A DNA stretch of 41,722 nucleotides from an uncultured Granulosicoccaceae bacterium (GTDB lineage Bacteria > Pseudomonadota > Gammaproteobacteria > CALCKW01): contig CALAMQ010000046.1 of the NCBI GenBank assembly GCA_937925815.1, positions 1 through 41,722 of the forward strand, given 5' to 3'. Under the pieces are notes generated by a model. It did no database searches, was not told the DNA's origin, and worked only from the letters and a program-made list of their open reading frames with translations. The first letter of the stretch is position 1; every line of letters starts with the position of its first letter. Made by a program: the position numbers and the translations under genes. Shown one piece after another: positions 3,152 to 29,324 of this stretch.

Positions 3152-5908
3152 TCAGGCTACCGCGCGCTCGAGCTTGGCCGCGCAGAACTTGAACTCGGGG
3201 ATCTTGCCCATCGGATCAAGCTGCGGGTTGGTCAGCCGGTTGGCCGCTGCCTCCTCGAAACAGAAAGGGATGAACACCATGCCTTCTGCAACGTCCGCGT
3301 CACGGCGCGCCTTGAGCGTGATTTCCCCTCGTCGCGTCGTCACGGTAACCGCGTCACCGGGCTCGATGCCGAGTCGCTTCATGTCCCAGCGGTTCAACCC
3401 GGCAATGGCTTCGGGTTCGAGCGCATCGAGGGTGCCCGAGCGGCGCGTCATCGAGCCGGTGTGCCAGTGTTCGAGCAGCCGGCCAGTGGTCAACACCATC
3501 GGGTAGTCGTCGTCCGGCAATTCAGCCGGCGGCACGAGATCGGTTGCGACGATCTTCGCGCGACCGCTTGCCGTCGGGAAGCCGTCGGTGAAAATCACTG
3601 CGTCACCCGGCTGGTCCTCGGCCCGGCAGGGGTAGGTCACGGCGTTTTCGCGGTCCACCCGCTCCCAGCTGATGTTCGCAAGCGACGGCATAACTTCACA
3701 CATCTCGTTGAAGACATCGCGCGGGTGGGCGTAGGTCCAGCCGAGACCGACCCGGTTGGCAAGCTCCACTTCGATCGCCCAGTCGGCACGCGCTTCACCC
3801 GGCGGATCGATGACCGGACGGCCCATCTGCACCTGGCGGTTGGTGTTGGTGTAGGTGCCCCACTTTTCGGCGTGTGCGCTCGCCGGCAGGATCACATCCG
3901 CATAGGCCGCCGTCTCGGTCAGGAAGATATCCTGCACCACGAGGTGCTCAAGTTTCGCGAGCGCCGCGCGCGCGTGGTTCTGATCGGGGTCGGACATCGC
4001 CGGGTTCTCACCGAGCACGTACATGCCACGAACCGTGTCGGCATGGACGGCGTCCATGACTTCCACCACGGTCAGACCGCGCTTGGGATCGAGCTTCGTG
4101 CCCCAGAAATCGGTGTAGCGCTCGATCATCTCATCGGCTTCAACCGACTTGTAATCGGGGTAGAACATCGGGATCAGGCCGGCATCGGATGCGCCCTGGA
4201 CGTTGTTCTGTCCACGCAACGGGTGCAGGCCCGTCCCCGGCCGTCCGACGTGTCCGGTGCTCAGCGCGAGCGAGATCAGGCAACGGGCGTTGTCGGTGCC
4301 GTGCACGTGCTGCGATACCCCCATGCCCCAGAAGATGATCGAGGACTTGGCATTCGCGTAGGTGCGCGCCACCTGGCGCAGCGTATCGGCCGGGATGCCA
4401 CAGACCTCGGCCATGTCATCAGGCGAGAAGCGTTGCACCGACGTCTGCAGCGCGTCGAAGCCCTCGGTGTTGGCCTGGATGTACTGTGCGTCGACGAGGT
4501 CTTCGTTGATGATCGTGTGCAACATCGCGTTGAGCATCGCGACATCCTGACCGGGCTTGAACTGCAACACGGTGTCGGCATAGCGCGCAATGCCCTGGTG
4601 CTGTCCGCGCGGATCCATCACGATCAGCTTGGCGCCCTGCTTGGCCGCCGCTTTGAGGTAGGTCGCCGCGACCGGGTGGTTCTCCGCCGGCCGTGCGCCG
4701 ATCACGATGATGCAGTCAGCCTGCAACGCGTCGGTGAACGGCGCCGAGACCGCGCCGGAATTGAGCCCTTCCATGAGCGCCGCCACGGATGACGCGTGAC
4801 ACAACCGCGTGCAGTGGTCGACGTTGTTGGTGCCGAAGCCCTGGCGGATGAATTTTTGAAAGAGGTAGGCTTCCTCGTTCGAACATTTGGCGGAACCGAA
4901 TCCCGCAAGCGACTCGCCGCCGTGCTCGGCATGCAAACGCTTGAGACCGCCAGCGGCCGCGTCGAGCGCCTCGTCCCATGTGGCCTCGCGGAAGAAATCG
5001 AATACGTTGTCCGGTGTGACCGACATCTCCGCGGTCTTGGGCGCGTCGTCGCGGCGGATCAACGGCGTCTTCAGGCGATCCGGGCTCTGCACGTAGTCGA
5101 AACCGAATCGGCCTTTGACGCACAAGCGGTTTTCGTTGGCCGGGCCGTCGCGCCCGTCCACCGACAGAATGTTGTTGCCCTTGACGTTGACCCGCGTCTG
5201 GCAGCCAACACCGCAATAGGGGCAGACCGTGTCGACGCTTTTCTCCGGGAATTCGGTGCGCACGCCTTGCGCATCCAACAGTCGCGACTCCATGAGCGCA
5301 CCGGTCGGGCAGGCTTGCACACACTCGCCGCAGGCCACACAGGTGGATTCGCCCATGCCGTCGTCGAAGTCGAACACGATCTTGGCGCCGGCACCGCGGT
5401 AGGCCATACCGATCACGTCGTTGGACTGCACTTCGCGGCAGGCGCGCACACAGAGGTTGCACTGAATGCAGGCGTCGAGATTGACCGAGATCGCCGCGTG
5501 GGTGTTATCCGCTTCGGGCTGCACACGGGTCGGGTAGCGGCTGGTGTGTGAGACACCCATGCCATCGACCCATGCCCAGAAATTGCTCTGGCTGTCGTGC
5601 GCGAGATCGCGCGCCGGCTGGTCAGCCAGGAGCAACTCGAACACCATCGATCGCGCCTTCTCGGCGCGCGGACTCTCGGTGTGCACCACCATGCCCGGTG
5701 TCGGCTCGCGCAGGCAACTCGCCGCGAGCACGCGCTCGCCTTCGATTTCAACCATACAAGCGCGGCAGTTGCCGTCGGCGCGGTAGCCGGGCTCCGGTGA
5801 ATAACACAAGTGTGGAATCGACGTGCCGTGGCGCTTGGCAACCTGCCACAGGGTTTCCCCGGGGTTGGCCTGTACCGTGTTGCCGTCGAGTGTGAATTCG
5901 ATTGTCAT
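3152..5908 (-). CDS. fdsA: NAD-dependent formate dehydrogenase, molybdenum (alpha) subunit
   Basis: 918 residues. It oxidises formate to CO2 at a bis-pterin molybdenum centre and passes electrons through iron-sulfur clusters to the diaphorase subunit encoded just upstream. The N-terminus has a [2Fe-2S] domain (C35, C48, C51, C65). Two [4Fe-4S] motifs follow (C147/150/153/157 and C190/193/196/200), then the CPYCGVGC cluster (C229, C232, C236, C263). The molybdenum ligand is C370 in CTRLCHASSV, so this is a cysteine, not selenocysteine, enzyme. I chose ATG at 5908 because GGAGGTG lies 7 bases upstream and the start overlaps the stop of the upstream gene as ATGA, indicating coupled translation. 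The length is a little shorter than that of Rhodobacter/Cupriavidus FdsA. No fdsC or fdsD follows; repeats lie downstream. Confidence 0.96.
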   Translation of the reverse strand: MTIEFTLDGNTVQANPGETLWQVAKRHGTSIPHLCYSPEPGYRADGNCRACMVEIEGERVLAASCLREPTPGMVVHTESPRAEKARSMVFELLLADQPARDLAHDSQSNFWAWVDGMGVSHTSRYPTRVQPEADNTHAAISVNLDACIQCNLCVRACREVQSNDVIGMAYRGAGAKIVFDFDDGMGESTCVACGECVQACPTGALMESRLLDAQGVRTEFPEKSVDTVCPYCGVGCQTRVNVKGNNILSVDGRDGPANENRLCVKGRFGFDYVQSPDRLKTPLIRRDDAPKTAEMSVTPDNVFDFFREATWDEALDAAAGGLKRLHAEHGGESLAGFGSAKCSNEEAYLFQKFIRQGFGTNNVDHCTRLCHASSVAALMEGLNSGAVSAPFTDALQADCIIVIGARPAENHPVAATYLKAAAKQGAKLIVMDPRGQHQGIARYADTVLQFKPGQDVAMLNAMLHTIINEDLVDAQYIQANTEGFDALQTSVQRFSPDDMAEVCGIPADTLRQVARTYANAKSSIIFWGMGVSQHVHGTDNARCLISLALSTGHVGRPGTGLHPLRGQNNVQGASDAGLIPMFYPDYKSVEADEMIERYTDFWGTKLDPKRGLTVVEVMDAVHADTVRGMYVLGENPAMSDPDQNHARAALAKLEHLVVQDIFLTETAAYADVILPASAHAEKWGTYTNTNRQVQMGRPVIDPPGEARADWAIEVELANRVGLGWTYAHPRDVFNEMCEVMPSLANISWERVDRENAVTYPCRAEDQPGDAVIFTDGFPTASGRAKIVATDLVPPAELPDDDYPMVLTTGRLLEHWHTGSMTRRSGTLDALEPEAIAGLNRWDMKRLGIEPGDAVTVTTRRGEITLKARRDADVAEGMVFIPFCFEEAAANRLTNPQLDPMGKIPEFKFCAAKLERAVA

Positions 5909-14953: not shown

Positions 14954-16789
14954 TTGAACGCAACGTCAGTGTTCGATAATCCAACCCCCGCCGCCAACCA
15001 CCGCCCCCTCCCCACCCTAAAACACCCACTCAAGGCCCTGAGCATCGCGTCACTCTGCATCGTGCTCGCCGCCTGCGACCCAGACAGGCCCAACACCTCA
15101 CCACTGACCGCGCGCGTCGACACCACAAACCAATTGCACACCGATGCCGACGTCTCCCGGTTTCTTGCGCGCGCCGGATTCGGCGCCACGACCGACGATC
15201 TCAGAAACTGGCGCAATCGCGACGCCGCCGACTGGCTTCGGGCAGAGTTCGACAAACCCGCCGAGCCACTCCTGCCTCAGACCGAGCTCGACATCGCCGC
15301 CATGGGCAACAACCTGCCCCCGTTCTCGGGGTACACGCGCTACCACTTGCACCGGCAATTGATCGATTCCGACGCCGAGTTGAGGACCAAGGCGACCTAC
15401 GCGCTGTCCCAAATATTTGTCGTTGGCGGCAGCGTCATAGACAACGGCCAGGACACACGGCGCGGCATTGGCTACCACGACACCCTTCACAAGAACGCTT
15501 TTGGCAACTTCCGTGAGTTGCTGCGAGACGTGACTTACTCCCCGGCCATGGCAATCTGGCTGACCTATTTACGCAACGCCCCGGGCGATCCCGCCACCGG
15601 ACGTGAACCGGACGAAAACTACGCCAGAGAGCTATTGCAACTCTTCACCATCGGTTTGAACCGGCTCAACCCCGACGGCACGCTGCAACGCGACGCAAAC
15701 GGCGACCCGATCCCCACCTACGACAACGACGATGTTGCGCAGTTGGCAAGGGTATTCACCGGTTTCAGCTACGACGACGATTCCTACTGGCCCAATGGCG
15801 ACGATACCCGCCGTGCTCAGGCGCGTGATTTGCGTATTTTTGAGGACCGTCACTCCACCCGTAGCAAGGTTTTTCTGGGCACTGTGATTCCAGCAGGTTT
15901 GGACGGTCCAACGGACGTTTCGATGGCGCTCGATCACATTTTTGCGCACCCGAACATCGCGCCCTTTATCTCTCGGCAGTTGATTCAACGTTTCACCGCG
16001 AGCCACCCATCGCCTGCTTACGTGAGGCGAGTTTCTGCCGCCTTCGAGTCAGGCGCGTACACATCGGCGAACAACACGCGTTTTGGTTCCGGCGCGCGCG
16101 GCGACTTGGAAGCGACATTGGCCGCCGTGCTGCTCGATGCATCGCTCTTCGAGCAACACACCGCGGGAGCAGAGCCTGCAAAAGTGCGCGAACCGTTGTT
16201 GAAGTATGTGCATTTCATGCGCACGTTCAAGGTTGAGAACCTCGAGTTCTTGACCCGCGCGTACCGACTGCGAGACCTCAACGCCATCAACGCCTTGGGT
16301 ATGGAAATTTTCCGCGCGCCATCAGTGTTTGGTTACTACCGCCCAGGCTACATCCCACCCATGACGCTCGCGGGCGAGAATAACCAGACGGTGCCGGAGT
16401 TCCAACTGACCAACACCAGCACCGTGACCGGTTACATCAATGTGATGACCGATCTCGCATTGGAACAAGTCAGTGTTTACAGCTGCCCCAACACACCGAC
16501 AAGCGTTTACCTCGGCCTGGACCCGTGCAACTTTGCGGGCCAAGGCGAGCCTTTCGCACCCGACTACTCTGCGGAAATTCGTTTGGCGCGCACTCCAAAC
16601 GCACTGGTAGAGCACCTCAACACCCTGCTGCTCGGCGACCGCATGCCCGCTGACGAGCGCCAATACATTGTTGACACCGTGGCAGGCATCCCGATCGAGA
16701 CCGACAGCACAACAGAGGATCTACGACGACGCGTGCAAATCGCCATTTTGATGGTGGTCACGTCGCCGCACTTCAGCGTATTGCGCTGA
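14954..16789 (+). CDS. DUF1800 family protein, lipoprotein
   Basis: 611 residues. It begins with a long N-terminal region and a hydrophobic segment ending in LAAC, a lipobox at about residue 41, so it is predicted to be exported and lipid-anchored. The DUF1800 body starts at about residue 64 (DADVSRFLARAGFGAT) and includes the family signature YARELLQLFTIGL and the FTGFSY segment. The function of DUF1800 is not established; the gene is almost always followed by a DUF1501 gene, as here, 41 bases downstream on the same strand. Translation appears to start at TTG (14954), with AGGCG seven bases upstream; no ATG is available before the signal sequence. Confidence 0.9.
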   Translation: MNATSVFDNPTPAANHRPLPTLKHPLKALSIASLCIVLAACDPDRPNTSPLTARVDTTNQLHTDADVSRFLARAGFGATTDDLRNWRNRDAADWLRAEFDKPAEPLLPQTELDIAAMGNNLPPFSGYTRYHLHRQLIDSDAELRTKATYALSQIFVVGGSVIDNGQDTRRGIGYHDTLHKNAFGNFRELLRDVTYSPAMAIWLTYLRNAPGDPATGREPDENYARELLQLFTIGLNRLNPDGTLQRDANGDPIPTYDNDDVAQLARVFTGFSYDDDSYWPNGDDTRRAQARDLRIFEDRHSTRSKVFLGTVIPAGLDGPTDVSMALDHIFAHPNIAPFISRQLIQRFTASHPSPAYVRRVSAAFESGAYTSANNTRFGSGARGDLEATLAAVLLDASLFEQHTAGAEPAKVREPLLKYVHFMRTFKVENLEFLTRAYRLRDLNAINALGMEIFRAPSVFGYYRPGYIPPMTLAGENNQTVPEFQLTNTSTVTGYINVMTDLALEQVSVYSCPNTPTSVYLGLDPCNFAGQGEPFAPDYSAEIRLARTPNALVEHLNTLLLGDRMPADERQYIVDTVAGIPIETDSTTEDLRRRVQIAILMVVTSPHFSVLR

Positions 16790-16830
16790 CAGACGCCGCG
16801 CCGCATCGACCCGTCATTCATCAGGAATCT

Positions 16831-18276
16831 ATGTTTATGAACAACCGAACCGCCATGTTCAACCGCCGTCAGTTCCTCCAGGCGATGTCCTCGGTCGCCC
16901 TTGCCGGCTCCTCCTTGAGCGAATGGGGAAGCTCCGCGGCTTTTGCCAACACTGACCCAGACGACTACCGCGCACTGGTATGCGTGTTCATGCTCGGTGG
17001 TATGGACCACAACGACTTTGTCCTGCCCTACGACCAAAGCGAATACGACCAAATGCTGGCGGCGCGCCCAGGCATCATGGCCGCCCACGCCACAGAGTCT
17101 CACGGCCATTCTCGCAACCGTGATGCCCTGCTGCCGTTGACGCCGCTCGACAACCTCGCCACTGAAGGCCGCCAGTACGCCGTGCCACAGGAAATGGTTG
17201 AGATGCGAGACATGTTCGACAACGAGGAATTGCTGTTTGTTGGCAGTGTTGGGCCACTGATCGAACCGACCAACCGGCTGAGCTACGAGGCGCGGTCAGT
17301 CCGGTTGCCACCCTCATTGTTCTCGCACAACGACCAGCAAAACTATTGGCAAGGACTCGGCATTGAGGGCGCGCGCGTTGGCTGGGGCGGTCGTTTTGTC
17401 GACGCCTTGCGCAATCAGGGGCAGTTGGGCCAGGAGGACATGTTCGCGTCGATCAGCACCAGTGGCAACACGCTGTTTTCCTCAGGAGAAGAAACTGCTA
17501 TTTTCCAGCTCGGTTCCAACTCCATCAACGGGCCGGGCGTCGAGCATTTGCGTCACATTCTCGGTTACACCGACGAAATGGACACCGTGCGTGCACGCCT
17601 TGCCAACTACTTTCGCACAGACGCCTTCGGTGAATCACATAGGCTTGCAACCGACGCCCGGGCTTTGCAAACGCGCGCTCTGACTGCAATAGACCGGTTT
17701 GGCGGTGAGTACAACAACCTCATGCCTTTCACCACAAGCTTCCCAAGCGACAACTTTGGCAGGCAGTTCCAACGTGTGGCCAACGCCATTCGAGCGTCTA
17801 GAACACTCGGGGCCGCCCGACAAATCTACTTCATTGGTGTTGGTGGGTTCGACACCCATTCAAACCAAGCCCAGGACTTGCCGTGGCGACAGGCCTCACT
17901 CTCGCAAGGCCTTAACGCATTCCGCAATGCCCTGAATGAAATCTCGCTCTGGGACAATGTCACGGTGTTCAGTGGCGCAGATTTCGGGCGAACCCTGATT
18001 GGAAACGGCTCGGGCAGCGATCACGGTTGGGGCGCGCACCACTTCGTGGCCGGCGGCAGCGTACGCGGCCGACGCCTTGTCGGTCGCATGCCACAGCACA
18101 ACCCCGACGGCATGGAATACACCGAGTCTCGCGGCAGATTGATTCCAAGCGTGTCGATCGAACAGTACAGTGCAAGCTTGGGGAAATGGCTTGGGGTGGA
18201 CGACAACACGGTGAATCGCGTGTTGCCCAACCTTTCAAACTTTGTCGGTCAAGATCTCGACTTGTTTACAGTCTGA
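16831..18276 (+). CDS. DUF1501 family protein with twin-arginine-like signal
   Basis: 481 residues. The N-terminus has NRRQFLQ followed by a hydrophobic Ala/Leu segment and an AFA site near residue 38, a twin-arginine export signal. The mature part starts with a strand (ALVCVFMLGGMDHND) typical of DUF1501, which shares the alkaline phosphatase/sulfatase-like fold. Later segments include FIGVGGFDTHSNQ and VTVFSGADFGRT, then SGSDHGWGAHHFVAGG near the C-terminus, all conserved in the family. Substrate and role are unknown. It forms a two-gene operon with the upstream DUF1800 gene. ATG at 16831 and 16837 are both possible; AGGA at 16823 fits either. Confidence 0.9.
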   Translation: MFMNNRTAMFNRRQFLQAMSSVALAGSSLSEWGSSAAFANTDPDDYRALVCVFMLGGMDHNDFVLPYDQSEYDQMLAARPGIMAAHATESHGHSRNRDALLPLTPLDNLATEGRQYAVPQEMVEMRDMFDNEELLFVGSVGPLIEPTNRLSYEARSVRLPPSLFSHNDQQNYWQGLGIEGARVGWGGRFVDALRNQGQLGQEDMFASISTSGNTLFSSGEETAIFQLGSNSINGPGVEHLRHILGYTDEMDTVRARLANYFRTDAFGESHRLATDARALQTRALTAIDRFGGEYNNLMPFTTSFPSDNFGRQFQRVANAIRASRTLGAARQIYFIGVGGFDTHSNQAQDLPWRQASLSQGLNAFRNALNEISLWDNVTVFSGADFGRTLIGNGSGSDHGWGAHHFVAGGSVRGRRLVGRMPQHNPDGMEYTESRGRLIPSVSIEQYSASLGKWLGVDDNTVNRVLPNLSNFVGQDLDLFTV

Positions 18277-18290
18277 GCCAATGGGCCGTT

Positions 18291-18318
18291 CGCCGCCTCG
18301 GTTCAAATCGGGGCGGCG
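18291..18318. terminator. Bidirectional hairpin between convergent genes
   Basis: CGCCGCCTCG (18291-18300) pairs with CGGGGCGGCG (18309-18318) with one T-G wobble around an 8-base loop. It lies in the 26-base gap between the convergent DUF1501 and glycosylase genes and covers the last codons of the latter. It has no T tract, so intrinsic termination would be weak; it may instead protect transcript ends. Confidence 0.4.
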
Positions 18319-18797
18319 AGCGCTGTGCGAAGCCCCAGCCACTGATCGCACTTTTCCTCAAACGATTGAAGGGCATTCGCGGCACTGCTTGAAGGCAGCT
18401 CAAGCACCGACACCCCAGGTGACAGGCAGATGTGCTTGCGAAAGCTCGACGCGGCCTTCCTGCCGTTGAGGGCGATCAACCGAATACTGGGGTGCTCCTG
18501 CAACAAGCTCTCGATGTCGTTGGGCTGTTCAGCGCGGATAGCGCTGTCGAGGCTACCGTCACGCTCACAGCGCGCAAGCACATCCCACAGCGCAATCCCG
18601 TGCCGGTTAAGCATCGCGAGTCGATCTGTGTATTCACTGGGGGTCGACTCTTGCAGCACTGCCGACATCAAACGCCAGAACTGGTTTTGATGGTGCGCGT
18701 AGTAGGCACTCTGCTTTAACGAGCTCACACCCGGGATCGATCCCAATACCAAAACCCGCGGGTGCGCTGGGACAACGGGCGCGAAGCTCTCAATCAC
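18303..18797 (-). CDS. Hypoxanthine (deoxyinosine) DNA glycosylase, UDG superfamily family 6
   Basis: 164 residues. The N-terminal LGSIPGVSSLKQSAYYAHHQNQFW block is diagnostic of the hypoxanthine-DNA glycosylase branch of the uracil-DNA glycosylase superfamily. The HGIALWDVL strand and LPSSSAAN near the C-terminus match the motif 2 region. These enzymes remove deaminated adenine (hypoxanthine) from DNA and start base excision repair. The start overlaps the stop of the upstream Gfo/Idh/MocA gene by four bases, so they are translationally coupled although functionally unrelated. The length is normal for the family. Confidence 0.9.
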   Translation of the reverse strand: MIESFAPVVPAHPRVLVLGSIPGVSSLKQSAYYAHHQNQFWRLMSAVLQESTPSEYTDRLAMLNRHGIALWDVLARCERDGSLDSAIRAEQPNDIESLLQEHPSIRLIALNGRKAASSFRKHICLSPGVSVLELPSSSAANALQSFEEKCDQWLGLRTALAAPI

Positions 18798-19882
18798 AGT
18801 GCAACAGCCTCGCCGCGGTTTGCACTCTCTTGCGCGGCCATGCCCATGCGAACCGCTTGCAAGCCATCCTGCAACGACACTGCTGGCGCTGCACGTTCAC
18901 CGCGCACAAGCTCCAAAAAGCCTTGATGTTGATAAAAGGTTGAACCGTTGTGGTCTCCGACCGCAAGCAGTGCCGTGTCAACTGGCGTCGCTGTCTCGAT
19001 TGGGCCGGCGGGGTTCCTCGGACTTTCAATCACACGCGGCAAGGGCGCCGCACCCAGATGCGCCGGCCAAAAACGCGTTGGCCCAGGCACATGGCACTCC
19101 AGCTTGCCACGCGGCCCAATCACACTGACTTCTTCTTGGTACTTCGAGCCTTCAGCGAACATACACAACTCAAGCATGGCTCTAACACCGGAATCGAAAT
19201 CGACGATCACATAACCGTGATCCAGAATATCTGGCACCTCGCCATCGTACTGTTCGTCCAAGTGATTCACCGCTTGACCGGCACTCGCCATCACCCGCAC
19301 CGGCTCCGCTTTGGTCACCAGGCGCATAAGATCAAAAAAGTGGCAGCACTTTTCGACAAAGGTGCCGCCGCTGTAGCGGTTGAAACGGTTCCAGTCACCG
19401 ACCTTCTCAAGGAAGGGAAAGCGGTGCTCTCTGATGGTCATTAGCCGCACACCACCCGTGGCAGCATCAGCGCGCTCACACAGCATCGAAATGGGTGGCA
19501 TGTATCGGTATTCCATCGCAACCCAAAGTGGCGCGCCAAAGGATTTCGCCAACTGCTCTGCTTCGACAATGTCCGCCGGGTCTGTCAACAAAGGTTTTTC
19601 CACAAGCGTTGGCAGCGGTCGAATCTTCGCGATTTCCTGCAATTGGCTGATATGGCAAAAATTGGGCGAGGCGATGACCACACAATCCAAATTGGATACA
19701 GCGAGCAGCGCCTGAACAGACCCGACGCGCGCAGCGTCAGGTACGAGAGCGTTGGTACGTGCAGCCATGTCATCGTCCGGCTCGTAGAACGCGGTGACAC
19801 TGGTGTCGCCAAGCAGCAGAATGTTTTTGATGTGCTCGTGGCCCATCATTCCTGAACCTATCAAGCCGTAACGCGTTGTCAT
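18794..19882 (-). CDS. Gfo/Idh/MocA family NAD(P)-dependent protein
   Basis: 362 residues. The N-terminal Rossmann domain has GSGMMG (G9, G11, G14) for the dinucleotide and the VEKPL motif (E95, K96, P97). The C-terminal alpha/beta domain has EYRYMPP and the GGTFVEKCCHFFDL motif, where K178, H181 and D184 sit at the usual catalytic positions. Most relatives oxidise or epimerise sugars and inositols; one branch (GH188) are NAD-dependent sulfoquinovosidases that feed sulfoquinovose pathways. The gene is 79 bases downstream of the GntR regulator on the same strand and back to back with an SsuD-type monooxygenase operon. It therefore probably acts on the same substrate. Which activity it has cannot be read from the sequence alone. 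Confidence 0.88.
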   Translation of the reverse strand: MTTRYGLIGSGMMGHEHIKNILLLGDTSVTAFYEPDDDMAARTNALVPDAARVGSVQALLAVSNLDCVVIASPNFCHISQLQEIAKIRPLPTLVEKPLLTDPADIVEAEQLAKSFGAPLWVAMEYRYMPPISMLCERADAATGGVRLMTIREHRFPFLEKVGDWNRFNRYSGGTFVEKCCHFFDLMRLVTKAEPVRVMASAGQAVNHLDEQYDGEVPDILDHGYVIVDFDSGVRAMLELCMFAEGSKYQEEVSVIGPRGKLECHVPGPTRFWPAHLGAAPLPRVIESPRNPAGPIETATPVDTALLAVGDHNGSTFYQHQGFLELVRGERAAPAVSLQDGLQAVRMGMAAQESANRGEAVAL

Positions 19883-19961: not shown

Positions 19962-20696
19962 TCATGCCAAACGCTGCACATAAACAGCCTCATTGGGGTC
20001 AAACCAGGTGCGCGAGAATTCCACCGCATCACCGTCTGACGACCACGCCGTGCGTTCGATATAACCCGCGTGATCTCCATCAAACTCAACTGGCGACCAA
20101 CCCGGCAACGCCGACACGGACACCGAGTCTGTGGCACGGGTGATATGCAAACCGAGCTGCTCTTGGTAATCCCGGTAGAGCGCGTCCGTCAGGCGCACCG
20201 CATCGAGCCGCCCCGCCGCGCCGTCGAGCCAAATTTCTTCGACGGCAATCAAGGTGTCATCAAGCCAGCGCAGCCGCCGGATGCGCGTGCCGTTTTCATT
20301 CGCACCGCCCAACCGCACTGCCGCTGATTTTTTGCGGTACGACACCGAGACGATGGCGGCAGTTGGCAAACCTGGGCGCTGAGCGTGGCGTCGCTCCAAA
20401 CGGAACAAGGAGTACATCGCGTCTCGCTCTGCATCAAAGCGCACGTAGTTCCCAGAGCCCTGCACCCGCTGCAAACGCCCTTCAGACGCGAGCAGACCGA
20501 GCGCCTTGCGCAGTGTTCCAATGGAGGTACCGAGCTGCTGTGCCATTGCCCGTTCGGGCGGCAAGCGCTCTCCATCCACGAATCGGCCCTCCGCAATTTC
20601 ACGTGTCAACATACGTGCAATTTGCTGAAATTTGGGCAATTCACTGCCGTCAGTGTCGATTTTTTCTGATGCCGTCACAATAAATTGATATACCAT
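19962..20696 (-). CDS. GntR-family (HutC/UTRA) transcriptional regulator
   Basis: 244 residues. Residues about 15-85 form a winged helix-turn-helix (QIARMLTREIAEGRF, GERLPPERAMAQQLGTSIGTLRKALGLLASEGRLQRVQGSGNYV). Residues 95-244 form a UTRA ligand-binding domain of the HutC type, which commonly senses sugars or small acids. It lies between the leftward Gfo/Idh/MocA gene and the rightward monooxygenase/TRAP operon, 60 bases from the latter's start. It is therefore the likely local repressor of both arms and of itself. Two TTGATA direct repeats overlap its start codon. ATG at 20696 is used; a GTG six codons later is possible. Confidence 0.92.
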   Translation of the reverse strand: MVYQFIVTASEKIDTDGSELPKFQQIARMLTREIAEGRFVDGERLPPERAMAQQLGTSIGTLRKALGLLASEGRLQRVQGSGNYVRFDAERDAMYSLFRLERRHAQRPGLPTAAIVSVSYRKKSAAVRLGGANENGTRIRRLRWLDDTLIAVEEIWLDGAAGRLDAVRLTDALYRDYQEQLGLHITRATDSVSVSALPGWSPVEFDGDHAGYIERTAWSSDGDAVEFSRTWFDPNEAVYVQRLA

Positions 20697-20709
20697 TGAT
20701 ACCTATAGT
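20685..20709. promoter_or_regulatory. Candidate operator/promoter between GntR gene and monooxygenase operon
   Basis: TTGATA occurs twice, at 20685-20690 and 20696-20701, one helical turn apart and overlapping the GntR gene start. The second copy followed by TACGCT 17 bases later, or the TATAGT at 20704-20709, could serve as rightward promoter elements. The 60-base gap is A/T-rich compared with its surroundings. Direct repeats one turn apart suit a dimeric regulator, but GntR sites are more often inverted, so this is only a candidate. Confidence 0.35.
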
Positions 20710-20756
20710 GCTGAATGATACGCTAACTCGAAATACAACTCTAGGTTTGTGAGAAC

Positions 20757-21914
20757 ATGACTTCTGTCGTTCCTATCACGTCCCCCGATCTTCAGGGTGC
20801 CGAGGTCTCTTGGTTCGCGGCCCTGTGCGCAGATGACTACCGCCAGCTCGGCGTGCCCGATGGCACGCTGCGCTCGAGCTGGTCGCACTGCTCGACCATT
20901 GTTAAGCAAGCCGAACAACACGGTTTTCGCAATGTGCTCTGCCCGTCGTCCTACCAGGTTGGACAAGACACTTTAAGTTTCGTCGCCGGCTGCGCACCGA
21001 TCACAGACCGTATCAACCTGCTCGCGGCAATACGTTGTGGTGAGATGCAGCCAATCATGCTCGCGCGCACAGTGGCCACGCTGGATCACATGCTCGAGGG
21101 CCGCCTGACCCTGAACGTCATCAGTTCTGACTTCCCGGGTGAAAAGGCTGACAGCGAGCACCGCTACCAGCGGTCGCGCGAAGTGGTTGAAATTCTTAAA
21201 CAAGCCTGGACGCAAGACCACATCAACTACCAGGGTGAGGTCTACCAGTTCTCTGACGTCAGCACCGAACCCGCCAAGCCCTACCAAACAGGTGGTCCAC
21301 TGCTGTATTTCGGTGGCTATTCACCATCGGCCCTCGAGCTCTGTGGCCAGCACTGCGACGTCTACCTGATGTGGCCCGAGACCGAGACACAACTGGCCGA
21401 GCGCATGCAGGCGGTCAACAGCGTCGCCGAGCGCTACAACCGCACCTTGGACTACGGCCTGCGCGTTCACATGATTGTCCGCGAGACCGAAGCTGAAGCG
21501 CGAGAGTACGCCGACTATCTGGTCGCCAAACTCGACGACGACCAGGGCGAGGCCATTCGCAAGCGTGCACTCGATGCAACGTCACTCGGGGTGGCACGCC
21601 AATCGGCTGCTCGAGACAGTGCCGACGACGCGGGCTACACCGAGCCCAATCTGTGGACCGGTGTCGGCCGCGCCCGATCCGGTTGCGGCGCGGCGCTGGT
21701 TGGTTCGGCCGACCAGATCCTCGAGAAGCTCGCGCGCTACCGCAAGATGGGCATGCGCTCATTCATCCTCTCGGGTTACCCCCACCTTGAAGAAGCCGAC
21801 TACGTCGGCAAGCTCGTCATACCCGAACTGGAAACCTGCTCGTTGCCGCACGCATACGGGCGAGTTCCCGCAAACACACCTGCTACACCACTTGGCCTTG
21901 GAGAACGACGCTGA
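20757..21914 (+). CDS. SsuD-type FMNH2-dependent monooxygenase (alkanesulfonate/sulfosugar, SmoC-like context)
   Basis: 385 residues, TIM-barrel LLM flavin monooxygenase of the alkanesulfonate monooxygenase group. These enzymes use FMNH2 and O2 to split a C-S bond, giving an aldehyde and sulfite. Motifs shared with E. coli SsuD are YFGGYSPSALEL, RVHMIVRET (R236, H238 for SsuD R226, H228), PNLWTGVG with R307 (R297) and SGYPHLEEADYVG (Y341 for Y331). SsuD's Cys54 aligns here with Gly69. It begins an operon with an aldo/keto reductase and a flavin reductase, the same three enzyme types as SmoC/SmoB/SmoA of the sulfoquinovose monooxygenase pathway. A dialkylsulfone or another sulfonate substrate is the alternative. 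Confidence 0.9.
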   Translation: MTSVVPITSPDLQGAEVSWFAALCADDYRQLGVPDGTLRSSWSHCSTIVKQAEQHGFRNVLCPSSYQVGQDTLSFVAGCAPITDRINLLAAIRCGEMQPIMLARTVATLDHMLEGRLTLNVISSDFPGEKADSEHRYQRSREVVEILKQAWTQDHINYQGEVYQFSDVSTEPAKPYQTGGPLLYFGGYSPSALELCGQHCDVYLMWPETETQLAERMQAVNSVAERYNRTLDYGLRVHMIVRETEAEAREYADYLVAKLDDDQGEAIRKRALDATSLGVARQSAARDSADDAGYTEPNLWTGVGRARSGCGAALVGSADQILEKLARYRKMGMRSFILSGYPHLEEADYVGKLVIPELETCSLPHAYGRVPANTPATPLGLGERR

Positions 21915-22804
21915 TGCAACGGCGCACACTCAACGACACTTTCAATATCAGCCAGATTGTCTACGGACTCTGGCGCTTGACTGACGACAGCAACACATCC
22001 GTTGAGCACGTCACGGCCAAGATCAACACCTGCCTCGACCAAGGCATCACGACCATTGACCAAGCAGATATTTACGGTGACTACGGCTGCGAAGCCGTTT
22101 TTGGCGAGGCATTGAAAGCCAACCCAGGTTTGCGCGACAAGATTGAGATTGTCACCAAGTGCGACATCGTCGCGCCAATTGGCCGCTACAGCGACGCGCG
22201 CGTTAAGTACTACGACACCAGCCGCGATCACATCACGCAGTCGGTTGAGCACTCATTGCGTGCGATGCATACCGACCGAATTGATCTTCTTTTGATACAC
22301 CGCCCCGATCCACTCATGGATCACGGCGAAACCGGTGCCACGCTGGACGCGCTGGTCGCCTCCGGCAAGGTACGGCACGTCGGCGTGTCCAATTTCCGAC
22401 CTTGGGACTGGACGCTGTTGCAATCGGCGATGACATCAAAGCTCTGCACCAACCAAATTGAACTGTCACTGCACGCCCACGACGCCTTCACCAACGGTGA
22501 CATCGCATTTCACCAACAGCACAACACCGCGCTGATGGCGTGGTCGCCGCTTGCTGGTGGCTCACTGATGCAAAGTGGTCACCCGGTCAACGCAACGCTG
22601 AACCGGATCGCCTCAGAACAAGGCGTGGACCCAAGCTCTGTCGCAATCGCATGGTTGCTGGCGCACCCGGTTGGCATCGTACCGGTGCTCGGCACCAACT
22701 CCCTGCAACGCATCGCCAAGCTCGACGAAGCCTTGCGCGTGGAGATGGATCGCGTCACGTGGTATGAACTCTACACCGCAGCGTTGGGCTGGGAGGTTGC
22801 GTAG
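21914..22804 (+). CDS. Aldo/keto reductase (YdhF-like; candidate 6-oxo-sugar reductase)
   Basis: 296 residues. A (beta/alpha)8 NAD(P)H-dependent reductase with the tetrad D49, Y54 (DQADIYGDYG), K82 (VTKC) and H129 (LLIHRPDP). It closely follows the YdhF pattern (YGLWRLTD, GVSNF, MAWSPLAGG, PVLGT). The start overlaps the monooxygenase stop by one base (TGATG) with GGAG about ten bases upstream, so translation is coupled. After oxidative desulfonation the carbon becomes an aldehyde; in the sulfoquinovose monooxygenase pathway a reductase of this superfamily (SmoB/SquF) turns 6-oxo-glucose into glucose. That role fits here but the substrate is not proven. Confidence 0.9.
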   Translation: MQRRTLNDTFNISQIVYGLWRLTDDSNTSVEHVTAKINTCLDQGITTIDQADIYGDYGCEAVFGEALKANPGLRDKIEIVTKCDIVAPIGRYSDARVKYYDTSRDHITQSVEHSLRAMHTDRIDLLLIHRPDPLMDHGETGATLDALVASGKVRHVGVSNFRPWDWTLLQSAMTSKLCTNQIELSLHAHDAFTNGDIAFHQQHNTALMAWSPLAGGSLMQSGHPVNATLNRIASEQGVDPSSVAIAWLLAHPVGIVPVLGTNSLQRIAKLDEALRVEMDRVTWYELYTAALGWEVA

Positions 22805-23304
22805 TGACACAGCCGGCAACCCAAGCGGTAGACACTCGCGACCTGCGCAACGCCCTCGGGCGGTTTGCAACTGGCGTCACAGTCGTCACCGCCGTGACCC
22901 CGACCGGGCCGATCGGAATCACGGTCAACAGCTTTGCCTCGGTCTCATTGGAACCGGCCCTGGTGTCGTTCAGTCTCGCCAACGACGGCGGTCGGACCAA
23001 GGCCTTTCTGGACGCTGAGCACTACGCAATCCACGTGCTTGACGCTGAGCAACTCGACATGTGCTGGGCGTTCGTGAACGCCATCGACGCGTTTGAGAAC
23101 TGCGATCACGCAACCAATGCCCACGGCGTTCCAGTTATCAGCGGCGCGCTTGCCACGTTTGAGTGCCGACGCAGTGCAATCTACCCGGGCGGTGACCACA
23201 GCATCGTGCTCGCTGAAATCGACCGCTATCACTGGCGTGACGGTGACGCGCTGGGCTTTTTCGGCGGCAAGATGACCGCCATTCGGGCAGCCAACCTCCA
23301 ATGA
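22804..23304 (+). CDS. Flavin reductase (HpaC/NtaB/SmoA type)
   Basis: 166 residues, single split-barrel flavin reductase domain. The N-terminal LRNALGRFATGVTVVTA block, the GITVNSFASVSLEPALVSFSL block (FMN binding) and the C-terminal HSIVLAEI and LGFFGGKM segments are all family signatures. It supplies reduced FMN from NAD(P)H to the upstream SsuD-type monooxygenase. Translation starts at GTG 22804, overlapping the last base of the reductase stop, with GGGAGG ten bases upstream. The next gene overlaps its end by four bases, continuing a fully coupled operon. The family call is firm; nucleotide preference is not visible. Confidence 0.93.
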   Translation: MTQPATQAVDTRDLRNALGRFATGVTVVTAVTPTGPIGITVNSFASVSLEPALVSFSLANDGGRTKAFLDAEHYAIHVLDAEQLDMCWAFVNAIDAFENCDHATNAHGVPVISGALATFECRRSAIYPGGDHSIVLAEIDRYHWRDGDALGFFGGKMTAIRAANLQ

Positions 23305-23870
23305 TTGACACGGTCCTGCGGCCACTGTCGGCGACCAACAGCGCCCTGTTGCGAATCGGCCGCGCCATCGGTGCGTTTTTTGTCGCATTGATGGTGGTTG
23401 CCATCCTCGTTCAAGTGTTTTTTCGCTACGGCCTGAACAACGCACTGCCCTGGCCAGACGAAGCTGCGCGCTTTTGCATGCTGTGGATGACGGGTTTGAT
23501 GGCACCGACAGCGCTTAGAAACGGCGGCTTTGTCGCTATTGATAGCATCCAGAACGTGTTGCCAACTGTCGTTGGACGCGGCCTCAATCTGGTGCTGCTC
23601 AGTTTGTCGCTCGCGGTAATTCTGGTGGCACTCTCAATTGGCTGGGAAGAAGTGACAGGCTTCGGCGGCAGGTTCAAAACGGCATCACTGTACTTACCAA
23701 CATCCTGGCAATTTGACAGCTGGTTCCGCCTGCCTCGCTCGACCATGATGGCGTCCTTGCTGGTCGGCTTTGCACTGATGGCACTGGTCAATATTGAGCT
23801 GATCCTGCGCGCACTGAGTGGTCGCCAAGCGCATGTGATCGACGCCCAAACAGTTGGAGGAGCGGAGTAA
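23301..23870 (+). CDS. TRAP transporter small membrane subunit (DctQ)
   Basis: 189 residues with four hydrophobic segments (about 24-45, 57-76, 86-108, 150-172) and the DctQ signature region FFRYGLNNALPWPDEAARFCMLWMTGLMA, where the PWPDEAAR block is the conserved part. The start overlaps the flavin reductase stop as ATGA. Together with the DctM gene that follows and the DctP gene at 27.1 kb it forms a secondary transporter driven by a sodium gradient. Linkage to the monooxygenase operon implies that it imports the monooxygenase substrate. Sulfoquinovose monooxygenase clusters described in Agrobacterium use an ABC importer instead. Confidence 0.92.
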   Translation: MIDTVLRPLSATNSALLRIGRAIGAFFVALMVVAILVQVFFRYGLNNALPWPDEAARFCMLWMTGLMAPTALRNGGFVAIDSIQNVLPTVVGRGLNLVLLSLSLAVILVALSIGWEEVTGFGGRFKTASLYLPTSWQFDSWFRLPRSTMMASLLVGFALMALVNIELILRALSGRQAHVIDAQTVGGAE

Positions 23871-25159
23871 TGCTCATCTGGTTTTTACCGGTTTTTCTGC
23901 TGCTGCTGCTGCTTGGCATACCGGTGTTTTTTGGATTGATCGCCGCACCCGGTTTACTGCTTTTACTCGAGGGGCAAACACGCGACTTCACCCTGCTCTA
24001 CCGCAATGTCTACAACGGCATGGACAGCTTTCCTCTGATGGCGATTCCGTTCTTTATGCTCGCGGGCGAGCTCATGAACCGGGGCGGTATCACCATCCGT
24101 CTTGTGGAGTTTTCACAGGCGCTTATGGGTCACCTGCGCGGCGGCCTCGCGCACGTCAACGTGCTGTCATCGATGTTGTTTGCAGGTTTGTCCGGCAGCG
24201 CCGTGGCCGACACCTCAGCGCTCGGTTCCATGCTGATACCGGCAATGGAAAAGCAGGGATATACCCGGCGTTTCGCCGCCGCAATCACAGCGGCAAGCTC
24301 CGTGATCGGCCCGATCATTCCGCCGTCTGGAATCATGATCATTTACGCCTATGTCATGGGCGAGAGCGTCGCGGCACTCTTTCTCGCGGGCATCGTGCCG
24401 GGCATCTTAGTCGGGCTTGGCTTAATGCTGATGGTGAGCTGGCAAGCAGACCGCTACGACTTCCCCGTGGCCAGCCGCAAACACACGTGGCGCGAACGCG
24501 GCCAGGCAAGTCTGAAAGCCTTCTTCCCGTTGATGACGCCTGTGATCATCATCGGCGGCATTCTCGGCGGCGTGTTCACGCCGACTGAAGCCGCCGCTGT
24601 CGCGGTAGCCTGGGCGCTTGTAGTTAGCCTCTTTGTGATGCGCTCCATGCAGCTCAAGGACCTGCCAGAGGTCCTCACGCGCGCCGGCATCACGTCCGCG
24701 GTGGTGCTGTTGCTCGTGGGCGCAGCCATGGCGTTTAAAACCGTGGTGAGCCTGAGTCATGCGCCAGAGATTCTCGCTGACTTCATTCTCAATTTGACCG
24801 ACAACCCGTTGTTGTTGCTGTTGTTGATCAACTTGTTGCTGTTTGCTGTGGGCATGTTCTTGGATGCAGGGCCGGCCATTATCATCCTCGGCCCCATTCT
24901 CGGCCCGGTGTTCATCGACCTCGGCGTGCACCCGGTGCACTTCGCCATCATCATGAGCGTCAACCTCACAGTGGGACTCGCCACACCGCCGATGGGCTTG
25001 GTGTTGTTTGTGGCCTCCAGCGTGTCAAAGGAGCGCGTAGAGACCATCGCCCGCGCGATTCTGCCTTTCCTCGCCGTGGAAATTGCGGTGATCTTTTTGA
25101 TCACGTTTATTCCGGCGCTCTCGTTGACTATTCCGCGTTGGACAGGCTTCGTACAATGA
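23870..25159 (+). CDS. TRAP transporter large permease (DctM)
   Basis: 429 residues, about 12 membrane segments. DctM landmarks are PLMAIPFFMLAGELMNRGGI near residue 50, GLSGSAVADTSALGSMLIP near 107, SSVIGPIIPPSGIMIIYA, GGVFTPTEAAAVAVAWAL and the late GLATPPMGLVLFVASS block. It carries the elevator domain that translocates substrate with Na+. Its start shares the last base of the DctQ stop and has GGAGGAG eight bases upstream. The rest of the transporter, DctP, lies 2 kb downstream, separated by a Sel1 gene and a dihaem peroxidase gene, an unusual split. Confidence 0.96.
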   Translation: MLIWFLPVFLLLLLLGIPVFFGLIAAPGLLLLLEGQTRDFTLLYRNVYNGMDSFPLMAIPFFMLAGELMNRGGITIRLVEFSQALMGHLRGGLAHVNVLSSMLFAGLSGSAVADTSALGSMLIPAMEKQGYTRRFAAAITAASSVIGPIIPPSGIMIIYAYVMGESVAALFLAGIVPGILVGLGLMLMVSWQADRYDFPVASRKHTWRERGQASLKAFFPLMTPVIIIGGILGGVFTPTEAAAVAVAWALVVSLFVMRSMQLKDLPEVLTRAGITSAVVLLLVGAAMAFKTVVSLSHAPEILADFILNLTDNPLLLLLLINLLLFAVGMFLDAGPAIIILGPILGPVFIDLGVHPVHFAIIMSVNLTVGLATPPMGLVLFVASSVSKERVETIARAILPFLAVEIAVIFLITFIPALSLTIPRWTGFVQ

Positions 25160-25212: not shown

Positions 25213-25686
25213 TCAGCGAAAGGGGTACATCCACGTGCGGTAGTCATCCACCAACTCAAGCGCTTCATCGCGCTGGGCGCGGCTGAGTTTGGGACCGAGA
25301 GACTCAAGCGACAACACCGCATCCGGGTCACCGCCAATCGCGCTCAAGGTGTACCAGAGGTAGGCACGGACAGGGTCCGGGGTTGGCAATCCACGGCCGA
25401 TTTCGTAATACCAACCCACACCCGACTGCGAACCCGCATGCCCTTTCATCGCGCTTCTGAGGTACCACTCAAAGGCGCGCCGGTCGTCGCGTTCGACGCC
25501 GAGCCCCATGGCGTAGAGGATACCGATCAGTTCCTCGGCGTCGGCGTTGCCGGCGTTCGCAGCCGGCAAAAGGGCCGCGCGCGCCTCGACAAACTGATTG
25601 TCTTCCATCAGGTCGCGCGCGTGTTCAATGTCGGCAACCGCCGTCATCGAAAGCACACCCAAACACAATCCAAACACTGCCTTCAC
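25213..25686 (-). CDS. Secreted Sel1-repeat protein
   Basis: 157 residues. A Sec signal peptide (MKAVFGLCLGVLSMTAVA) precedes two to three Sel1-type helical repeats: NAGNADAEELIGILYAMGLGVERD, HAGSQSGVGWYYEIGRGL and ARAYLWY-like PVRAYLWYTLSAIGG. Such repeats act as periplasmic protein-binding scaffolds. The start at 25686 is supported by CAGGAG nine bases upstream. The gene interrupts the TRAP operon on the opposite strand, and its 5' end overlaps the apparent 5' end of the peroxidase gene. Role unknown; a link to the transporter is not implied. Confidence 0.8.
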   Translation of the reverse strand: MKAVFGLCLGVLSMTAVADIEHARDLMEDNQFVEARAALLPAANAGNADAEELIGILYAMGLGVERDDRRAFEWYLRSAMKGHAGSQSGVGWYYEIGRGLPTPDPVRAYLWYTLSAIGGDPDAVLSLESLGPKLSRAQRDEALELVDDYRTWMYPFR

Positions 25687-27018
25687 GCTCTTGCACTCCT
25701 GTTTTTCACGTCGACAGCAAGCGCGCTGGAATTACCAAACGCGCCCTCACCGTCAGATTTTCACCCGACAAATCCTGCCGACGTCGAAGTCGGTCGGCTG
25801 CTTTTTTTTGACAAGGTGTTGTCGGGTAATCGAAACACAAGTTGCGCAACCTGTCACCACCCCGCATTCGGCACCAGCGATGGATTGTCACTTGGCATTG
25901 GTGAAGGCGGCATGGGTGTGGGCACACACCGGACCCCCGGCACCGGCTCTGACAAAATTAAAAAACGTGTACCACGAAACTCACAAGCACTCTTTAATCT
26001 CGGTGCGCGCGACATCCACACCCTGTTTCACGATGGCCGCTTAGCGCTCGGTGACGAGTACGGCAACGGCTTTAACAGCCCGGCTGAAGAATGGCTGCCA
26101 CAGGGGCTGGACAATTTGCTCGCGGCCCAAGCGCTCTTTCCGTTGGTCGCGCAATTCGAAATGGCAGGTAACCTCGCCGAGAACGATGTGATCGGTGCAG
26201 TCCACGACCGCATCGACGCCGCCTGGCCCATTCTCGCGGCGCGTGTTGCAGACATCCCGGCCTACGCCGAGCATTTCATCCGCGAAAAATCCCACATTGA
26301 TTCCCCTGGCGACATTCGCATCAGCGATATCGCCAACGCGCTTGGCGCGTTCATGAACGCCACTTGGCAACGCATCGACACCCCCTTTGATCTCTACCTA
26401 AGAGGAGATAAGACTGCACTGAACAACACCGAGCTGCGCGGCATGCGTCTCTTCTACGGCGAGGCGAATTGCGCGAGCTGCCACAGTGGCATGTGGCTCA
26501 GTGACCAGTCCTTTCACGCCTTGGGGTTGCCATCCTTTGGCCCCGGCCGCACGCGCCGACACAATTTGCTCGCGCGTGATCTCGGCCGCCTAGCTGAAAC
26601 CGACGACATCAAAGACGCCTACGCCTTCAGAACACCGATGCTGCGCAACGTCGCACTCACTGCCCCATACGGACACAACGGCGCCTGGGCCACGCTTGAG
26701 GACATCATTCGCCATCACTTGGACCCGCTGACCATGCGCGAAGCATGGACACCCGAGGACGCCAAGCTGCCCTTGGTGCCGTGGTTGCAATCCGTAGACT
26801 TCATTATTCAACAAGACCGCATCGAGATGGCGAGGCAAGCGGCGCGAGTGCCCGCCGCAGGCCCGGCGCTCAGCGACGCAGAGATTCAAAGTCTGGTTGC
26901 CTTCATGCACGCACTGACCGACGAGCGCGACGATCCGCTGAGTCTGGTGCCAGCGTCCGTGCCCTCCGGCTTGCCTGTTGACCGCGTGCCACAACAACTC
27001 AGCGCCGTCTCGCCGTGA
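25621..27018 (+). CDS. MauG/CcpA-like dihaem c-type peroxidase (start uncertain)
   Basis: About 465 residues from GTG 25621. A hydrophobic segment ending TSTASA near residue 32 suggests a periplasmic signal peptide. Two haem c sites are seen: CATCHH (C75, C78, H79) and CASCHS (C284, C287, H288). Other family segments are RVPRNSQALFNLG, FHDGR, FRTPMLRNVALTAPYGHNGAWATLEDIIRHH. Relatives reduce H2O2 with electrons from cytochromes or oxidise protein substrates (MauG). No ATG exists in frame near the signal peptide; the frame is open back to 25138, so GTG 25621 is my best guess. It would overlap the Sel1 gene head-to-head by 66 bases. It lies between TRAP genes M and P. An upstream frameshift cannot be excluded. 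Confidence 0.82.
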   Translation: MFNVGNRRHRKHTQTQSKHCLHALALLFFTSTASALELPNAPSPSDFHPTNPADVEVGRLLFFDKVLSGNRNTSCATCHHPAFGTSDGLSLGIGEGGMGVGTHRTPGTGSDKIKKRVPRNSQALFNLGARDIHTLFHDGRLALGDEYGNGFNSPAEEWLPQGLDNLLAAQALFPLVAQFEMAGNLAENDVIGAVHDRIDAAWPILAARVADIPAYAEHFIREKSHIDSPGDIRISDIANALGAFMNATWQRIDTPFDLYLRGDKTALNNTELRGMRLFYGEANCASCHSGMWLSDQSFHALGLPSFGPGRTRRHNLLARDLGRLAETDDIKDAYAFRTPMLRNVALTAPYGHNGAWATLEDIIRHHLDPLTMREAWTPEDAKLPLVPWLQSVDFIIQQDRIEMARQAARVPAAGPALSDAEIQSLVAFMHALTDERDDPLSLVPASVPSGLPVDRVPQQLSAVSP

Positions 27019-27064: not shown

Positions 27065-27124
27065 TAGCCATCGGATCCCGTGACGGGAACCCACACCTTG
27101 AAACTCACACGAGGAGATATTGAT

Positions 27125-28189
27125 ATGTTCAAGGGTTCACTGAAGAAAGCCGCAGTGGCTGCCGCAATCGCGCTCAGCGCAACGGCGGCCCAAGCTGCCG
27201 ACATCACACTGCGGGCAACCGCAAACTCTAACGAGAACGACGAAGACTACGACGGTCTGGTGGTTTTCAAAAACTACGTTGAAGCAGCCTCAAACGGTGC
27301 GATTGAAGTGGAGCTGTTCATCGGCACACAGCTGTGCAGCAACGGCACAGAGTGCTTGCAAGGCGTTGCCGACGGCACAATCGACGTTGTTATCCAAACC
27401 TCGGGTGGCACCTCTGGGCTGTTCCCGTTTGTGCAGGTTCTCGACCTTCCCTACCTCATGGCAGATGACCGCGTTGCCGAAGCGGCACTGGCGAACGGCT
27501 CTGAATTCATCACCACCATGCAGCAGATGGTCAGAGAGGGTTCGGGTGACGCAATCCGCCTGATGACCATCGGCAACACAGGTGGCTGGCGGAACTTTGC
27601 CAACACCAAGCGCCGCATCGCAAACCCATCCGACATGGAAGGTCTGAAAATTCGGACGGTGGTGGCAGACTTGCCCCAGGAACTGGTCAAAGCACTGGGC
27701 GCGAGCCCAACTCCGATTCCGTGGCCAGAGCTGTTCACCAGCTTTCAGACAGGTGTGGTTGAAGGCTCAAAGAACGGCATCACAGACATCATGAACATGA
27801 AGTTCCCAGACGCCGGCTTGCAATACGTGACGCTCGACGGTCACGCGTACATGGGTGCGTTGTGGTTCATGAACAACGAGCGGTTCAGCGGTTTGTCTGA
27901 CGAGCTCAAGCAGGTCGTAGTTGACGGTTTCTACCAACTGCAGCAGGCGACCTTCGCCTCACCTAAGCGCAAATCCATTCAAGCGTACAGCGACTTTGTT
28001 GCAGGCGGTGGTGACCTCTACGTGCCAACCCCAGACCAGAAAGCGGCCTTCCGTGAAGCTGCGTCGCCGGTCTACGACTGGTTCAAGCAGAACGTGGACG
28101 GTGGCGAGGCCGCATTTGATGCCTTGGTCTCGTCTGTCGAGACAGCAGAAGCCGCATTGAGTGCTGTTCGCGCAGCTGACATGCAGTAA
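27125..28189 (+). CDS. TRAP transporter substrate-binding protein (DctP)
   Basis: 354 residues. A Sec signal peptide (cleavage after AQAA near residue 25) leads to a periplasmic DctP fold. The family arginine that anchors the substrate acid group is R177 in MEGLKIRTV, followed by the ELFTSFQTGVVEGSKNG block. That is compatible with a carboxylate or a sulfonate ligand. Two cysteines (C71, C77) near LCSNGTEC may form a disulfide. ATG 27125 is chosen for the GAGGAG seven bases upstream and the signal peptide. A strong hairpin follows the stop. It is separated from DctQ/DctM by 2 kb but is the only binding protein in the window, so I pair them. Confidence 0.94.
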   Translation: MFKGSLKKAAVAAAIALSATAAQAADITLRATANSNENDEDYDGLVVFKNYVEAASNGAIEVELFIGTQLCSNGTECLQGVADGTIDVVIQTSGGTSGLFPFVQVLDLPYLMADDRVAEAALANGSEFITTMQQMVREGSGDAIRLMTIGNTGGWRNFANTKRRIANPSDMEGLKIRTVVADLPQELVKALGASPTPIPWPELFTSFQTGVVEGSKNGITDIMNMKFPDAGLQYVTLDGHAYMGALWFMNNERFSGLSDELKQVVVDGFYQLQQATFASPKRKSIQAYSDFVAGGGDLYVPTPDQKAAFREAASPVYDWFKQNVDGGEAAFDALVSSVETAEAALSAVRAADMQ

Positions 28190-28400: not shown

Positions 28401-29324
28401 GTGCAGCGGGGCGGGATATCAGTGGTTGGATCTGTGGTTGACGCGCTTGCGGGAGCTAAATTCACGTTAGAGCGCGACGGGTTGTGCATCATTCCCGATG
28501 TACTGAGCCCTGCGCAGGTAACCAGTGCCCGCGAAGCGGCACTGACGCACCTGTCACAATCGGGCAAGCCGTACAACGGCGGCTGCGTGCAACAAGACGT
28601 GCTCAACCACGCCGAGAGTTTGCATTGGCTCCTGACAGACACGCCGCTCAGCGACGCGGTGCACGGGCTGGTTGGGGACGACGCGCGCTACGTGCACCAC
28701 GCCGACCTGCTGCACAACACCTATACCGGGTGGCACAAAGACAGCACTGGCTTTGACGAAGCGGGTCAGCCGATGGATTTTTGGTCTCAACAGGGCGAAA
28801 AATCGTATCGAGTGTACAAGTTTGGGTTCTATCTGCAGGACCACGCCGTCGACAAAACGGCGTTGAAGTACATCCTTGGCAGCCACCTCGACCCCGACTT
28901 CTATGGCGTCAAAAAACGCTTGAGCCACTTTTTGGCACACACACACCTGCACTGCGGCCCACGCGATCTGGTGGTGTTCGATCAACGCATCACGCACAAC
29001 GGCGTCTCGCCGTGGCTGCCGTGCAAGCTTGCTCACCGCGTGATCAAATCTCCTGCGCTCAAACAGCAGCTGTGGACGCAGGAGCGCGCGCTGAGACAGA
29101 TTCAAGACCGTGTGTTTATCCAAATCGCGTTCGGTCAAGATTCTGTTTTTTCCCGCTCACACGCCCGCGCCATGGCACGCCGCCAGGCCGAGATAAACGG
29201 CCAGTCGCACTATGAACTCAGTGGTCCGCTGGCGTCAGCGTTGAACAGCATTGACCTTCCAGCCTGTGAGCTGACCGAAAACACACCCGTGCAACAGGCA
29301 AGCGATTTACCGCGCGCCGCGTGA
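28401..29324 (+). CDS. Phytanoyl-CoA dioxygenase family Fe(II)/2-oxoglutarate oxygenase
   Basis: 307 residues from GTG 28401; a GTG at 28422 is also possible. The jelly-roll core starts with LERDGLCIIPDVLSPAQV. The iron facial triad is visible as H112 and D114 (WHKDS) and H199 (RITHNG). A YILGSH segment and a PRDLVVFDQR strand before the last His are typical of PhyH. R213 after it may bind 2-oxoglutarate. It begins 212 bases after the DctP gene on the same strand, past a terminator-like hairpin. PhyH-type enzymes hydroxylate diverse small molecules. An Fe/2-oxoglutarate dioxygenase is known to desulfonate sulfoquinovose in marine bacteria; whether this protein is of that kind is open. Confidence 0.85.
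   Translation: MQRGGISVVGSVVDALAGAKFTLERDGLCIIPDVLSPAQVTSAREAALTHLSQSGKPYNGGCVQQDVLNHAESLHWLLTDTPLSDAVHGLVGDDARYVHHADLLHNTYTGWHKDSTGFDEAGQPMDFWSQQGEKSYRVYKFGFYLQDHAVDKTALKYILGSHLDPDFYGVKKRLSHFLAHTHLHCGPRDLVVFDQRITHNGVSPWLPCKLAHRVIKSPALKQQLWTQERALRQIQDRVFIQIAFGQDSVFSRSHARAMARRQAEINGQSHYELSGPLASALNSIDLPACELTENTPVQQASDLPRAA

Follow-up and report, generated by a model that had tools for sequence, protein, structure and literature searches.

Enzymes of the recently described family GH188 use NAD+ to release the plant sulfo-sugar sulfoquinovose from its carrier. The founding NAD+-dependent sulfoquinovosidases of family GH188 (PDB entries 8QC2–8QC8) come from Flavobacterium (FlSqgA) and Arthrobacter (ArSqgA) (PMC10755693). 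In ArSqgA, the residues K107, Y136, E189, H193, and H321 contact the sugar, whereas contacts to the sulfonate come from R166 and K172 and from the L170 backbone (PMC10755693). Tyr variants of SqgA differ at the leucine position of the sulfonate site (PMC11465081). GH188 was described in sulfo-SMO clusters of Roseobacters in 2023, (PMC10755693), and a complementary distribution of GH188 and GH31 has been published. A 2026 review lists sulfo-ASMO just for alpha- and betaproteobacteria (PMC12890257), and sulfo-SMO has been reported in one Vibrio genome (PMC13372026).

The window, that is, the whole stretch of DNA that was analyzed, comprises 41,722 nucleotides from an uncultured Granulosicoccaceae bacterium. 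Based on sequence comparisons and a structural model, the gene at 18794–19882 is best explained as an SqgA orthologue, and it very probably encodes a GH188 NAD+-dependent sulfoquinovosidase; for Roseobacters, the main conclusion is already published. The following features were assigned around this gene:

18794–19882, minus strand: sqgA-like gene for a putative GH188 NAD+-dependent sulfoquinovosidase, ATG start, 362 aa, no internal stop
19962–20696, minus strand: GntR/UTRA regulator, 244 aa, divergent from smoC across a 60-bp intergenic region
20757–21914, plus strand: SmoC-like FMNH2-dependent sulfoquinovose monooxygenase, 385 aa (7OLF, E=1.7e-199; 7OH2, E=6.6e-194)
21914–22804, plus strand: SmoB-like aldo-keto reductase, putative 6-oxo-glucose reductase (7BBY, E=2.2e-123)
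22804–23304, plus strand: SmoA-like flavin reductase
23301–23870, plus strand: TRAP transporter small permease DctQ
23870–25159, plus strand: TRAP transporter large permease DctM
25600–27018, plus strand: MauG/CCP-like di-haem protein with two CxxCH motifs, start uncertain (open frame from 25138)
27080–28189, plus strand: TRAP solute-binding protein DctP, presumed binder of sulfoquinovose (SQ) or SQ-glycerol

The reading frame of sqgA is real and intact, and its product matched the Pfam families GFO_IDH_MocA and GFO_IDH_MocA_C with scores well over the gathering thresholds. One copy is present in the host assembly; four further genome matches were weak and correspond to Gfo/Idh/MocA paralogues of 25–28% identity. 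A preliminary description of this DNA had placed the gene downstream of the GntR gene, and the two are indeed direct neighbors on one strand, with the GntR gene upstream. The sequence motifs named there were likewise found in place, GxGxxG as G9-S-G-M-M-G14, EKP as E95-K96-P97, and the residues K178, H181, and D184 at the positions claimed. On the far side of sqgA, a DNA-deoxyinosine glycosylase gene (18303–18797, minus strand; TIGR04274, over cut-off) overlaps the sqgA stop by four bases, and this gene order also occurs in two congeneric genomes (L095 and L096). The adjacent genes for a DUF1800 and a DUF1501 protein (14954–18276, plus strand) are unrelated to the SQ locus.

In the alignment with ArSqgA, the columns of K107, Y136, E189, H193, and H321 correspond to K96, Y125, E177, H181, and H311 of the window SqgA, and those of R166, L170, and K172 to R154, L158, and K160. 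E152 aligns with the ArSqgA glutamate that replaces the tyrosine of GH109. The residue L158 is a leucine and not the Tyr variant (PMC11465081). All of these residues (K96, Y125, E152, R154, L158, K160, E177, H181, and H311) were kept in 86 of 86 GH188-like sequences, whereas the GH188 active-site residues were mostly absent from four aligned distant Gfo/Idh/MocA proteins. The set that discriminates against these four consists of Y125, E152, K160, E177, and H311; R154 is a less clean discriminator, with arginine in three of the four at a place where the alignment is unsure. The preliminary description had cited K178, H181, and D184. K178 does discriminate, but H181 and D184 do not, because both are present in all four distant proteins; these two are general to the superfamily, and the diagnostic evidence therefore differs from that first cited.

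Judged by homology, the neighborhood is a complete sulfo-SMO pathway, comprising SmoC, SmoB, SmoA, the GntR regulator, and a TRAP transporter. The genes smoA, smoB, and smoC are co-localized, and start and stop codons overlap along smoC-smoB-smoA-dctQ-dctM. The operon divergent from gntR-sqgA has the order smoC, smoB, smoA, dctQ, dctM, MauG-like gene, dctP. Structures 7OLF and 7OH2 are of rhizobial SmoC, and 7BBY and 7BBZ of rhizobial SmoB, under generic names in the PDB; SsuD-type PDB chains matched the window SmoC with E values of just ~1e-54. A search of 20661–20780 for a GntR operator revealed no palindrome whose arms reach 5 bp. The absence of a GH31-like glycosidase from the window, noted earlier, was confirmed on a larger scale: a PF01055 search, positive in E. 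coli and five other controls, revealed no GH31 protein in the whole host genome (99.13% complete), and thus none in the window. The window sqgA accordingly lies in an SQ catabolic cluster lacking a GH31 sulfoquinovosidase (SQase), and its sulfo-SMO context together with the GH31 absence agrees with the published complementary distribution (PMC10755693). A PhyH-type dioxygenase-like protein encoded downstream of dctP (28401–29324, plus strand) was weighed as a candidate SQ dioxygenase (sulfo-SDO). It was left out because no solved relative was found, tblastn gave no match in the 83 cassette loci covered, and in sister genomes its homologues and sqgA sit on different contigs, with linkage possible in genome G002, where the contigs of the homologues are short.

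An SQ glycoside would be the substrate by analogy with ArSqgA, and the sequence does not separate sulfosugars such as SQ and sulfofucose. A GH188 enzyme acting on a glycoside of another sulfosugar (e.g., sulfofucose), or on a modified sulfolipid head group, instead of SQ-glycerol would fit with the existence of sulfofucose catabolism (PMC12421959). However, the whole pocket matches that of ArSqgA, including E177, the glutamate that binds C4, and the partners SmoC and SmoB are closely homologous to solved Smo proteins, which makes this reading very unlikely.

A phmmer search of the window SqgA against all PDB sequences also favored an SQ-cleaving enzyme. The top match was 8ZN9 (E=2.9e-156, 523 bits), with ArSqgA (8QC3, E=2.2e-105) and FlSqgA (8QC2, E=9.9e-104) as the other two SQases. 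Sequence identity amounted to 63% with 8ZN9 over the whole length and to 48% with each of ArSqgA and FlSqgA, compared to ~20% with dehydrogenases. The next match after the three SQases was the inositol dehydrogenase 4HKT (E=5.8e-14, 54.9 bits). The PDB entry 8ZN9 is titled 'A vast marine sulfonate-based carbon cycle fueled by novel sulfoquinovosidases' and probably comes from Ma et al. 2025, Nat Commun, a paper cited in PMC12890257. Its 63% identity to the window SqgA exceeds the threshold of the GH188 similarity network (>53% identity), so this link passes (PMC10755693).

An AlphaFold2 model computed from the window SqgA and 27 locus homologues (28 sequences) reached a mean pLDDT of 91 and a pTM of 0.91. 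The sulfonate loop (~residues 151–170) was its least confident part, with pLDDT block means of 61–68. A single-sequence model was poor (pLDDT 41) and was discarded. In a Foldseek comparison of the model with the PDB, the best 12 matches were all sulfoquinovosidase chains (TM 0.88–0.97; 8ZN9, 0.96), followed by dehydrogenases with TM 0.72–0.80 at 15–21% identity. The main alternative of the preliminary description was an ordinary sugar dehydrogenase working on the desulfonated product. Such a Gfo/Idh/MocA enzyme, specific for a sugar or inositol and using the glucose or 6-oxo-glucose left by desulfonation, can draw on the general family match (96 bits with the inositol 2-dehydrogenase model TIGR04380) but is hardly credible in view of scores far under the curated cut-offs (355 for this NCBIfam equivalog), 350–523 bits for SQase structures against 55 for the best dehydrogenase, the kept sulfonate triad R154/L158/K160 and H311, and the reductase already supplied by SmoB. 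Neither the clustering with inositol or glucose dehydrogenases nor the missing sulfonate pocket, named at the outset as evidence against a sulfoquinovosidase, was observed, the best such match being 4HKT. The GH188-type sulfoquinovosidase reading is thus supported at the level of sequence and model, with 63% and 48% identity to the closest solved relative and the GH188 founders and with conserved site residues.

For the GH188 sulfoquinovosidase, the following course of catalysis may be proposed by analogy with ArSqgA. R154 and K160, together with the L158 backbone NH, would bind the substrate, sulfoquinovosyl glycerol or a different SQ glycoside, at its sulfonate. Bound NAD+ would oxidize C3, with K96 and H181 holding the C3 hydroxyl, and the C2 proton would be removed, a step in which Y125 is implicated, before elimination of the aglycone. 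Water would then be added with H311 at C1, and re-reduction of C3 would regenerate NAD+, the net reaction being hydrolysis to free SQ. SmoC together with SmoA would desulfonate SQ to sulfite and 6-oxo-glucose, which SmoB would reduce to glucose. The TRAP transporter presumably imports SQ or an SQ glycoside, and GntR may control both divergent operons.

For comparison, 80 loci were fetched from named genomes. The genes sqgA, smoC, and smoB occurred together in 74 of these, mainly in Rhodobacterales and Rhizobiales, and TRAP genes were also present in 44 of the 68 loci with enough flank. The MauG-like di-haem gene is the least expected part of the locus. It was found in 26/44 TRAP-form loci and in 0/24 loci without TRAP, counts that are not independent because the loci are related (L006–L010, L012–L015, L017, L018, L022–L025, L064, L066, L068, L096, and others carry it). 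In the literature searched, and judged by titles, MauG and sulfoquinovose came up together in three papers, all of them incidental. Tentatively, the encoded enzyme, probably periplasmic, might be a functional partner in the TRAP-form sulfo-SMO/GH188 cassette, for instance in peroxide handling or in the maturation of a periplasmic component, but we consider this rather doubtful. If true, it would be a part of SQ catabolism for which no description was found, and the conserved gene offers a small lead open to testing.

The host class was assessed via RpoB because the assembly contains no SSU (16S) gene. Against the PDB, the best group of RpoB chains, including E. coli, scored 2100–2234 bits and the next group at most 1752 bits. 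The best chains are of pseudomonad and xanthomonad origin and those of the next group alphaproteobacterial, which makes the host a gammaproteobacterium. A close smoC was present in 5 of 369 genomes sampled from the host's class, three of the five belonging to the window's own genus, and sulfo-SMO/GH188 clusters are rare in gammaproteobacteria. In a quickly built tree, the window sequence and those of two species of its genus formed a group (SH-aLRT 100) within a set of alphaproteobacterial sequences, and a third congener was found elsewhere on a long branch. The gammaproteobacterial cluster was probably acquired by horizontal transfer; rarity in the class and tree placement together point to alphaproteobacteria as a likely source, with weak support for the deeper forks and hence for the direction and number of transfers. 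Judging from sequence, a gammaproteobacterial lineage would hence possess a complete glycoside-to-glucose SQ route via GH188 and sulfo-SMO. In L096, from one of the congeners, a GNAT acetyltransferase gene (L096:8002–8694) separates gntR from sqgA; the window lacks this gene, and L095 has a similar open frame at about 4911–5490 in the same position. The third congener (G003) has a more divergent sqgA-gntR-smoC-smoB-smoA set (L097:4371–8910; SqgA identity 56%) without TRAP genes directly after smoA.

Compared to the known enzymes, the window SqgA is closest to the marine sulfoquinovosidase 8ZN9, with which it shares the same residues besides full-length similarity and fold. FlSqgA and ArSqgA (8QC2, 8QC3, 8QC5, 8QC6, and 8QC8) are more distant in sequence but alike in fold, in all catalytic and sulfonate-binding residues, and in the leucine at the L170 position. 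The founding enzyme from Arthrobacter AK01 is encoded in a sulfo-EMP cluster, whereas the window sqgA belongs to a sulfo-SMO cluster. In the fetched Rhodobacterales loci, Roseobacter sulfo-SMO/GH188 clusters resemble the window in having smoC-smoB-smoA with divergent gntR and sqgA, often along with TRAP genes and the MauG-like gene. The window differs from these clusters in its gammaproteobacterial host, in the DNA-deoxyinosine glycosylase gene that overlaps the end of sqgA, and in the position of the MauG-like gene, which lies between dctM and dctP in the window and beyond dctP in the Roseobacter clusters.
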